Shown here: one piece after another, positions 50,594 through 53,731 of the stretch
Layout: each line of letters begins with the position of its first letter
Numbering within the stretch: the first letter of the stretch is position 1
Assembly: GCA_900315805.1 (NCBI GenBank)
Contig: ONAN01000003.1
Span: 62,001 to 126,000 of the forward strand
DNA: 64,000 nt
From: an uncultured Selenomonadales bacterium
GTDB lineage: Bacteria > Bacillota > Negativicutes > Acidaminococcales > Acidaminococcaceae
Reading direction: 5' to 3'
Program-made: the position numbers and the translations under genes
Notes under the pieces: generated by a model
Told to the model about the DNA's origin: nothing
Database searches by the model: none
The model's input: the letters and a program-made list of their open reading frames with translations, nothing else

Positions 50594-50620
50594 GGCCCGC
50601 TTTGCAGCGGGCCTTTTTTT
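50594..50620 (+). terminator. Rho-independent terminator of coaX
   Basis: Seven-base stem GGCCCGC / GCGGGCC (50594-50600, 50607-50613) with a six-base loop and seven T. Confidence 0.92.
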
Positions 50621-50660
50621 AGACTGTACGGTTCGTTCGGAACCGGTGGGACGATTACCT

Positions 50661-51638
50661 ATGAAGATTGGGAACATTGCCTTGGACACGCCCCTGGCCC
50701 TGGCCCCCATGGCGGGGATCTCGGACCTGCCGTACCGCGTCCTGTGCCGCCGCTGCGGCGCCGGCCTGACGGTTTCGGAAATGGTCAGTGCCAAAGGCCT
50801 GCTCTACAAAAATGAAAAAACCTTCGCCATGCTCGCCATCGACCCGGCGGAACGCCCGACGGCCATCCAGCTCTTCGGCTCCGTGCCGGAGGAAATGGCC
50901 GAGGCGGCCCGCATCGTGGAAGCGCGGGGGGCCGACATCATCGACGTGAACATGGGATGTCCTGTGCCCAAGGTCGTCAACAACGGCGAAGGGTCCGCCC
51001 TCATGAAGACGCCGGAACGGGCCGGGCAGATTCTGTCCGCCATGACGCGGGCCGTGCGCATCCCCGTGACGGTGAAGTTCCGCTCCGGCTGGGACGACGA
51101 GCACCGCAACGCCGTGGAATTCGCCAAGGTGGCGGAAGCGGCCGGCGCGGCGGCCATCGCCGTGCACGGACGGACGCGGCAGCAGTTCTACACGGGCAAG
51201 GCCGACTGGGACATCATCCGGCAGGTGCGGGAGGCCGTTTCCATTCCCGTCTGGGGAAACGGGGACATCTTCACCTGGCAGGACGGCCTGCGCATGCAGC
51301 AGGAAACAGGCTGCGACGGCCTTATGGTCGCCCGCGGCGCCAACGGCAACCCCTGGATCTTCGCCCAGCTGAAGGCGGCCCTGGCCGGCGGGCCGGTGCC
51401 GCAGGTTTCGGACGCGGAGCGCCTGGCCTGCATCAAGGAACACGCGGAGGCCCTGGTACGCTTCAAGGGCGAGGTCATCGCCATCAAGGAAATGCGTAGC
51501 CACGCGTCGGCCTATCTGAAAGGCATGCCCCAGGCTGCGACGTGGCGGGAAAAGTTCCACCAGGCGGACACGCTGGAAGAGTTGGAAGGACTCGTGGATG
51601 GCTACGGGGACTTCCTGAAGGAATACAGAAAGAAATAA
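50661..51638 (+). CDS. dusB: tRNA-dihydrouridine synthase (DusB type)
   Basis: A 325-residue FMN enzyme that reduces uridines in the tRNA D loop. The TIM barrel shows LALAPMAGISDLPYR near 13, NMGCPVPKVVNNGEGSALM near 95 with the catalytic Cys, and HGRTRQQFYTGKADW near 164. ATG 50661 is preferred; a GTG at 50646 has no better ribosome-binding site. The order coaX-dusB-greA-lysS is common in clostridia, but here two extra genes lie between dusB and greA. Its TAA stop shares its last A with the next ATG. Confidence 0.94.
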   Translation: MKIGNIALDTPLALAPMAGISDLPYRVLCRRCGAGLTVSEMVSAKGLLYKNEKTFAMLAIDPAERPTAIQLFGSVPEEMAEAARIVEARGADIIDVNMGCPVPKVVNNGEGSALMKTPERAGQILSAMTRAVRIPVTVKFRSGWDDEHRNAVEFAKVAEAAGAAAIAVHGRTRQQFYTGKADWDIIRQVREAVSIPVWGNGDIFTWQDGLRMQQETGCDGLMVARGANGNPWIFAQLKAALAGGPVPQVSDAERLACIKEHAEALVRFKGEVIAIKEMRSHASAYLKGMPQAATWREKFHQADTLEELEGLVDGYGDFLKEYRKK

Positions 51639-52594
51639 TGGACTTGGAGAACAGGAAAGACAACGGCAACAGAACAAGAAAACGGGTCATCAGCATCAGC
51701 CTCGGGTCGTCGGAACGCGACGCCGCGGGGACGCTGGAGCTGGGGGACACGGTCATCCGCCTGGAACGGCGCGGCACGGACGGCGACATGGATAAGGCGG
51801 CCGCCCTGCTGCGGGCGTACAACGGCAAGGTCGACGCCATCGGCCTGGGCGGGACGGACCTGTACCTGGTGGCCGGCCGGCACCGCTATGTGTTCCGCGA
51901 ATCGGCCCGGCTCCTGGAGAACGTGAAACAGACGCCGGTCCTGGACGGCAGCGGCCTGAAGAACACGCTGGAGCGCTCCATTGTGCGGCGCCTGGCGGCG
52001 GACGGCACGGTGGACTTCCGGGGGAAAAAGGTGCTCCTGACCTGCGCCGTGGACCGCTTCGGCATGGCCGAGGCTTTGTGCGAAGCCGGTGCCGACGTCA
52101 CGTTCGGCGACATCCTCTACGGACTGGGCTTCCCTGTCCCGCTGCACAGCCTGTCCCTGCTGGACAAGCTGGCCGCCCTCGTCGTGCCGGTCATCACGAA
52201 GATGCCCATCCGCTGGTTTTACCCGACGGGGAAGGAACAGACCCGCAGGGTGGTCCGCTATCCGGAATACTTTTTGCGGAACGACATCATCGCCGGGGAT
52301 TTCCTGTTCATCAAGCGCTTCATGCCGAACCGCCTGGACGGTAAGACCATCCTCACGAACACGGTCACGGCCAAAGACCGCGTCATGCTCCGCGAGGCCG
52401 GCGTCCGGACGCTCATCACGACGACGCCCCGCGTCAACGGGCGCAGCTTCGGCACGAACGTCATGGAGGCCGCCCTGGTCGCCTCGGTCGGGGCCCGGCA
52501 CAGCCTGGAACCGGCGGCGTATGACGAACTGATTCGGAAATATCACCTGCACGCGTCCGTGGAAACGCTGAACGGACCGCGGCAGGAAGCATAG
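51638..52594 (+). CDS. Unknown-function protein of the family often labelled quinate 5-dehydrogenase
   Basis: A 318-residue soluble protein. After a charged 15-residue leader comes VISISLGSSERDA, then RRGTDGDMDKAAALL, IGLGGTDLYL, DGSGLKNTLERSIVRR (about 105), a VDRFGMAEAL segment (about 137) and ITNTVTAKDR (about 238), with ITTTPRVNGRSFGTNVMEA near the end. I recall the same pattern in Firmicute proteins named quinate 5-dehydrogenase in databases, but I see no classic GxGxxG Rossmann loop, and that name is doubtful. Its TAATG overlap with dusB and the 17-base gap to the acyl-ACP-reductase-like gene argue for co-expression with the latter. Confidence 0.7.
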   Translation: MDLENRKDNGNRTRKRVISISLGSSERDAAGTLELGDTVIRLERRGTDGDMDKAAALLRAYNGKVDAIGLGGTDLYLVAGRHRYVFRESARLLENVKQTPVLDGSGLKNTLERSIVRRLAADGTVDFRGKKVLLTCAVDRFGMAEALCEAGADVTFGDILYGLGFPVPLHSLSLLDKLAALVVPVITKMPIRWFYPTGKEQTRRVVRYPEYFLRNDIIAGDFLFIKRFMPNRLDGKTILTNTVTAKDRVMLREAGVRTLITTTPRVNGRSFGTNVMEAALVASVGARHSLEPAAYDELIRKYHLHASVETLNGPRQEA

Positions 52595-52611
52595 GGAAGG
52601 AAGGAACGCGA

Positions 52612-53706
52612 ATGGAGAAGTTTGCCTTTATGCTGCATCCGCTTTCGCTGGCGGACATGCAGCATGTGTCCCCCCTGATCCGCCTGGTGCCGGACGGGGT
52701 GCTCGAATTCGCCCTGCGGCACAAGAAACCGTTCACGGTGTCGCACATCACGGGTGTGCGCAGCCCCTATGCCGAGGCGGAAGGCTGGTTCGTGGGCTGC
52801 CCCCTGACGGCGAAGCAGATGCTGACCCTGCCGGAAGAGTTCGTCATGGACCGCATCATCGAGACCGGGAAGATCGCCCAGGAGCTGGGCGCAAAAATCC
52901 TGGGCCTCGGCGCCTTCACGAGCATCGTCGGCGACGCGGGCCTCACGGTGGCGAAGAATCTGGATATTGCCGTTACCTCGGGGAACAGCTATACGGTGGC
53001 GACGGCCCTGGAAGGGACGCGCAAGGCGGCCCGCCTCATGGGCAAAGACCTGCGCACGGCCCAGATCGCCGTCATCGGCGCCACCGGTTCCATCGGTGCC
53101 GTCTGCGCCCGTATCCTGGCGCGGGAAGCGGGCCATATCACGCTGGCGGCCCGCCATTTGGGGCCCCTGGAAGATCTGGCGCAGGAACTGGTCCGCACGT
53201 CGGACGCGGAAATCCGCGTGACGCAGGATACGGCTGCCTGCATACGCCAGGCCGACGTCGTCCTGACCGTGACGAGCGCCGTCGATTTCCAAATTGACCC
53301 GGCGGACTTCAAGCGCGGCGCCGTGGTCTGCGACGTGGCCCGGCCCCGCAATGTGTCCCGTGCCGTGACGGCGGCCCGTCCCGATGTCCTCGTCATCGAA
53401 GGCGGCGTCATCGACGTGCCGGGCGACGTGGACTTCCATTTCCACTTCGGCTTCCCGCCGAAGACGGCCTTCGCCTGCATGGCGGAGACCATGATCCTGG
53501 CACTGGAAGGCCGGTACGAGAACTTCACCCTGGGACGCAATTTGCGGCCCGAACAGATCGATACCATCGCGGCGCTGGCGGAAAAACACCAGTTCCGCCT
53601 GTCGGGTTTCCGGAATTTCGAGCATGCCGTGACGGAAGAGACCATCGCGGCCGTGCGGGAAAACGCCGGAACGATGGTGGAAGGGGAGGCCGTTCCGGAA
53701 ATTTGA
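52612..53706 (+). CDS. Homologue of cyanobacterial acyl-ACP reductase (aldehyde-forming)
   Basis: A 364-residue NAD(P)-binding protein. GLGAFTSIVG at 98-107, TSGNSYTVATA at 122-132, the nucleotide loop VIGATGSIGAVCAR at 154-167 and FACMAETMILALEG at 287-300, followed by FTLGRN, align by eye with the long-chain acyl-ACP reductase (AAR) of cyanobacteria. Cys289 in FACMAE matches the AAR thioester-forming cysteine in FACFAE. Databases may label such proteins shikimate dehydrogenase. It could reduce an acyl thioester to an aldehyde, but the substrate is unknown and no aldehyde-deformylating oxygenase is present. It follows the preceding unknown gene by 17 bases; SD is GGAAGGAA. Confidence 0.72.
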   Translation: MEKFAFMLHPLSLADMQHVSPLIRLVPDGVLEFALRHKKPFTVSHITGVRSPYAEAEGWFVGCPLTAKQMLTLPEEFVMDRIIETGKIAQELGAKILGLGAFTSIVGDAGLTVAKNLDIAVTSGNSYTVATALEGTRKAARLMGKDLRTAQIAVIGATGSIGAVCARILAREAGHITLAARHLGPLEDLAQELVRTSDAEIRVTQDTAACIRQADVVLTVTSAVDFQIDPADFKRGAVVCDVARPRNVSRAVTAARPDVLVIEGGVIDVPGDVDFHFHFGFPPKTAFACMAETMILALEGRYENFTLGRNLRPEQIDTIAALAEKHQFRLSGFRNFEHAVTEETIAAVRENAGTMVEGEAVPEI

Positions 53707-53731
53707 CAAGGTCCGGCCAAAAAATTATAAT
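53703..53731 (+). promoter_or_regulatory. Consensus promoter of greA (and probably lysS)
   Basis: TTGACA (53703-53708), exactly 17 bases, TATAAT (53726-53731). A perfect sigma-70 promoter whose -35 contains the TGA stop codon of the upstream gene. Confidence 0.93.

Follow-up and report, generated by a model that had tools for sequence, protein, structure and literature searches.

Conserved gene pair of Bacillota encodes a probable acyl-thioester reductase with the AAR fold and an orphan partner protein

Reductases of the AAR type have been described in two settings, cyanobacterial alkane synthesis and secondary-metabolite gene clusters. In AAR itself (SeAAR; structures 6JZQ, 6JZU and 6JZY; family model TIGR04058), Cys294 forms the acyl-enzyme, R189, R193 and R314 make up the pocket for the 2'-phosphate of NADPH, and Tyr247 lines the acyl tunnel, with the Y247A variant unable to bind stearoyl-CoA (PMC7089970). 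Reductase activity has been reported in the literature for PigE (prodigiosin), in which an N-terminal thioester reductase domain is fused to an aminotransferase, and likewise for TamH, which is reported to be NADH-specific (PMC9594044). TamH, KecF and a set of Bacillota proteins, referred to below as TA-TR (aminotransferase-reductase) fusions, carry the same reductase domain family. The carmabin TAD (9e4s, 9e4u, 9e50 and 9e56) is part of a large amino-acid-adenylating protein; its structures are NAD(H)-bound, and its cysteine is disulfide-linked to a CoA-derived ligand.

The locus described here belongs to a 64,000-nucleotide stretch of DNA (the window) from an uncultured Selenomonadales bacterium, and consists of two genes, A and B, between dusB and greA. 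Its features are as follows.

50646..51638, + strand: dusB, the 5' neighbour of gene A
51638..52594, + strand: gene A, 318 aa, usually labelled quinate 5-dehydrogenase; AAR-like fold predicted by a structural model, without a family match
52052..52057, + strand: A Asp139-Arg140, invariant in 156/156 copies; opposite the dinucleotide glycines of B in an A-B alignment that is not significant
52457..52459, + strand: A Asn274, invariant; opposite B Cys289 if A Glu277 is paired with B Glu292
52612..53706, + strand: gene B, 364 aa, AAR-fold acyl-thioester reductase homologue by profiles and an AlphaFold model
53077..53097, + strand: dinucleotide loop of B, GATGSIG, residues 156-162; aligned with AAR 162-GATGDIG-168
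53476..53478, + strand: B Cys289, aligned with the catalytic Cys294 of AAR
53703..53731, + strand: sigma-70 promoter sequence TTGACA-17-TATAAT, 12/12 consensus, spanning the end of B

The stop codon of dusB and the ATG of A overlap, as a first-pass annotation of this DNA had recorded; they share one base (TAATG, 51636-51640), and 17 bases separate A from B. A terminator-like hairpin follows coaX at 50594-50613; with the promoter across the end of B, it makes dusB-A-B look, on sequence grounds, like a single transcription unit. The promoter scan found this one site, compared with a mean of 0.7 in shuffled sequences at a looser threshold of 9/12. The perfect sigma-70 consensus overlaps the stop codon of B ahead of greA, which it presumably drives, and so would mark the end of the dusB-A-B unit.

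Protein B carries the motifs TSGNSYT (residues 122-128), GATGSIG and Cys289 within FACMAE, in a reading frame of the length first described. Its best NCBIfam match, covering residues 3-350, is the PigE reductase domain NF053554 (5.3e-62), at 210 bits against a curated cut-off of 850; the second is cyanobacterial AAR, TIGR04058 (1.2e-31, residues 78-329), at 110.3 bits and thus below the equivalog cut-off of 449.7. A phmmer comparison of B with PDB sequences likewise retrieved PigE (3.5e-32) and AAR (8e-25), far above chance. In Pfam, B matches PF01488 alone (2.3e-11), and it is this match that could favour the automatic labels, by which B would be an ordinary shikimate/quinate or amino-acid dehydrogenase. 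The match is nevertheless limited to the Rossmann part of the middle domain (residues 141-254), the AroE N-terminal domain finds no Pfam match in B, and the AroE models reach only 16-18 bits against cut-offs of 252-295. The profile search of 52612-53706 that the first-pass annotation had proposed therefore places B on the AAR/PigE side, and the dehydrogenase reading deserves hardly any credence. B has the same cysteine and most of the same motifs as PigE. Unlike PigE, it has no fused aminotransferase (Aminotran_3 was not found in B by Pfam) and does not lie in a biosynthetic gene cluster.

The structural comparison agrees with this placement. An AlphaFold model of B built from 54 sequences (pLDDT 90.2) superposes on AAR 6jzy with a Z-score of 36.0, at 2.8 A over 326 residues and 26% identity, and on the carmabin TAD with a Z-score of 35, at 19-20% identity. 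The next unrelated family scores 14.7, and the quinate/shikimate dehydrogenase YdiB 13.6-13.9. The alignment puts Cys289 at the place of the AAR catalytic cysteine, as had been proposed, and the full-length fold match together with the residue alignment suggests that it faces the cofactor. This cysteine is present in the window, in 20/20 Negativicutes copies and in 93 other Bacillota copies of B; its equivalent is also found in 10/10 TA-TR fusions, in PigE and in AAR, and it is replaced in 10 full-length B copies from several lineages.

B further retains GxxGxxG, His9, Arg181 (AAR R189) and Arg309 (AAR R314), and thus shares with AAR two of the three arginines of the pocket for the 2'-phosphate of NADPH. 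The third, R193, corresponds to Pro185 in Negativicutes B and to lysine or arginine in most other copies. The retention of the full catalytic residue set in most copies of B implies selection for activity. The acyl-tunnel residue Tyr247 of AAR is replaced by Arg244 in B, which speaks against assuming a plain long-chain fatty acyl substrate; the TA-TR fusions, however, have this arginine too. In the fusions, residue 181 is Asn and Arg309 is missing, in keeping with the NADH specificity reported for TamH (PMC9594044).

In a FastTree phylogeny, the Negativicutes copies of B are nested within those of other Bacillota, AAR and PigE lie on very long branches, and the TA-TR fusions form a clade separate from stand-alone B. 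On this topology, acquisition of B from cyanobacteria was rejected. The evidence supports the assignment of B as an AAR-fold thioester reductase homologue that is not a cyanobacterial-type AAR and is nearer by sequence to the PigE reductase domain. Of the earlier description of B as a cyanobacterial-type AAR homologue, the homology therefore stands and the qualifier does not.

The unexpected element of the locus is its partner, a conserved protein of an orphan family whose model has an AAR-like fold. A has no family relatives in Pfam or NCBIfam and no convincing sequence relatives in the PDB, even when a 79-sequence profile is used. Its confident model (pLDDT 89.7) has AAR as its best VIA-align match, with a Z-score of 14.2, at 4.4 A over 249 residues and 13% identity. 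AAR and TAD structures fill ranks 1-9 (Z-scores 14.2-12.4, 4.4-5.5 A, identity 7-14%), followed by glutamate dehydrogenase at 10.7; Foldseek E-values by themselves do not single out AAR. A profile alignment of A with B (hhalign) is collinear and not significant (Prob 0.3%, E 0.4), leaving fold as the sole argument for a common origin of the two. From the model, we infer that A is a diverged AAR-fold protein, one that has a near-invariant polar site of its own.

A lacks both the Rossmann glycines and the catalytic cysteine. Opposite the dinucleotide loop of B, it reads CAVDRFGMA in the window, which bears out the earlier remark that a classic Rossmann loop is absent, and a later segment reads GTNVMEA. 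About 30 residues of A are invariant or nearly so among 156 copies, including Arg27, Arg44, Asp103, Lys108, Glu112, Asp139, Arg140, Asp158, Asp221, Thr240, Asn241, Arg269, Ser270, Asn274 and Glu277, a pattern that looks like a working site rather than a dead scaffold. Long A frames that might have been fusions of A with the HTH protein described below or with B (L104, L078 and L167) contain neither an HTH nor a B domain and look like GC-rich frame extensions.

The occurrence of the two genes is asymmetric. Among 61 relatives, A and full-length B occur together in 46, neither gene in 13, A without full-length B in two (G030 and G046) and B only in none. Among 299 Bacillota genomes, 150 (about half) have both genes and 37 have A alone, with B lacking A in a single one of the 151 B-containing genomes (G079, 78% complete); as the genomes are not independent by phylogeny, such counts overstate the number of events. 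A is accompanied by weaker B matches in 36 of the 299, and those examined are mostly TA-TR fusions or partial copies. B thus depends phyletically on A, which is its near-obligate partner. Of the co-occurrence that the first-pass annotation had asked about, one direction is borne out, in that B is nearly always found with A; A is not always found with B.

The order of genes is equally widespread. Among 80 named loci, an HTH protein lies 5' of A in 69 and B lies 3' of A in 60, usually followed by greA and lysS. For Bacillota, [HTH]-A-B flanked by dusB and greA-lysS looks like the ancestral arrangement, and the best explanation of the data is an old, mostly vertically inherited locus. The earlier notion that the pair had been inserted between dusB and greA does not hold, since the same order is found across the class and the phylum.

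Taken together, B is probably an aldehyde-producing, NADPH-dependent acyl-thioester reductase partnered by A in an old Bacillota locus; we hold this reading with fair, though not high, confidence. As a member of the AAR/PigE-TR/TamH-TR superfamily, and by analogy with its characterised relatives, B would accept the acyl group of acyl-ACP or acyl-CoA on Cys289, after which hydride from NADPH bound at GATGSIG would release the aldehyde. A may be a subunit of a complex, a handler of the product of B or a regulator, and physical contact between the two proteins is presumed. A more specific and rather doubtful version holds that the two proteins are subunits of one acyl-thioester reductase system, in which the aldehyde produced by B is received or transformed by the diverged AAR-fold subunit A. 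On the comparison with AAR, B differs in its anaerobic hosts and in having gene A alongside. Here an AAR-type member sits among housekeeping genes in a neighbourhood that is old and conserved, and it is linked to a protein family that has enzyme-like invariant residues but neither a Pfam entry nor a sequence relative of solved structure. If B makes aldehydes from acyl carriers, it would provide a general acyl-reduction step in these anaerobes, of which no description was found in the literature, and many genomes would be mislabelled where they list a 'shikimate dehydrogenase' or a 'quinate 5-dehydrogenase'. A literature search on the A-B gene pair and on clostridial 'quinate 5-dehydrogenase' returned nothing relevant. 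If the two-subunit version is true, the pair would constitute an unnoticed core aldehyde pathway of anaerobic Bacillota, and A a new family of enzymes or sensors.

In some lineages, A has been retained although B is Cys-less, degenerate or absent, and A is therefore not solely a helper of the reductase. A stronger form of this idea makes A the actual enzyme or sensor of the unit and B a dispensable, sometimes dead accessory whose ancestral reductase activity has become irrelevant in many hosts. In its favour, the near-invariance of A extends to genomes in which B is missing, decayed or without its Cys, and the divergence of A tracks that of lysS closely (distance correlation r 0.81, against 0.44 for B). 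The B of the window and every examined copy from Negativicutes nevertheless have the complete set of catalytic residues, as do most of the remaining copies, and we regard this alternative as unlikely.

Evidence on the product of B comes from the loci in which it is replaced. These Bacillota often encode TA-TR fusions of about 840-980 aa built like TamH (L055, L061, L065, L070-L075, L123 and L178). At two loci (L178/L194 and L123), such a fusion occupies the place of B after A, which makes an aldehyde product plausible; at a third (L065), one lies just 5' of A in company with a Cys-less B. These replacements could also indicate that the aldehyde feeds amine formation through a stand-alone aminotransferase, as in TamH and PigE, and the window genome does encode four class III aminotransferases. 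All four are nevertheless of ordinary single-domain size and on contigs other than that of A-B, and the fusions form their own clade with Asn181 of the NADH type, whereas B is a stand-alone protein with Arg181. We consider an amine-forming role quite unlikely.

As regards the fate of the aldehyde, ADO (PF11266), which distinguishes the setting of AAR from that of B, was not found in the window genome (G000, 98% complete) by a search in which the Synechococcus elongatus control was positive. AOR was not found in the window genome either, so its role as an obligate aldehyde consumer was rejected. That B might supply fatty aldehyde for ether lipids was raised in the first-pass annotation. This role, or one in plasmalogen synthesis, would find support in a 1428-aa DUF2229 protein of PlsA size encoded in the window genome outside the window (match at G000:C17:188999-189661); we take DUF2229 together with this length as the mark of PlsA. 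Incorporation of long-chain aldehydes into bacterial plasmalogens has also been reported (PMC9702350). PlsA/PlsR, however, act on intact diacyl lipids, whose acyl ester they reduce, and this route requires no aldehyde (PMC9702350). PlsA-size DUF2229 genes are moreover anticorrelated with B (22/151 genomes with B against 55/148 without it) and also rarer with A, and sampled genomes of family f15, of the same class, have PlsA-size genes and neither A nor B. A dedicated plasmalogen role for A-B is therefore disfavoured, and we judge it very unlikely that B serves this pathway.

The HTH protein found 5' of A in other lineages is 175-205 aa long with an unassigned C-terminal domain (e.g. L079 4390-4926 and L080 4249-4779). 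Its gene is missing from this place in the window lineage, and a search of the window genome, run without a positive control, gave no match to the regulator. In several lineages, the gene next after A encodes a protein of 245-376 aa without a family match, here called protein X (L079, L080, L107, L126, L127, L150, L152, L163, L181-L183, L185 and L186). Some of these proteins begin like B (e.g. LDFAFF) and lack the Cys motif, the likeness being judged by eye, and these may be decayed copies of B.
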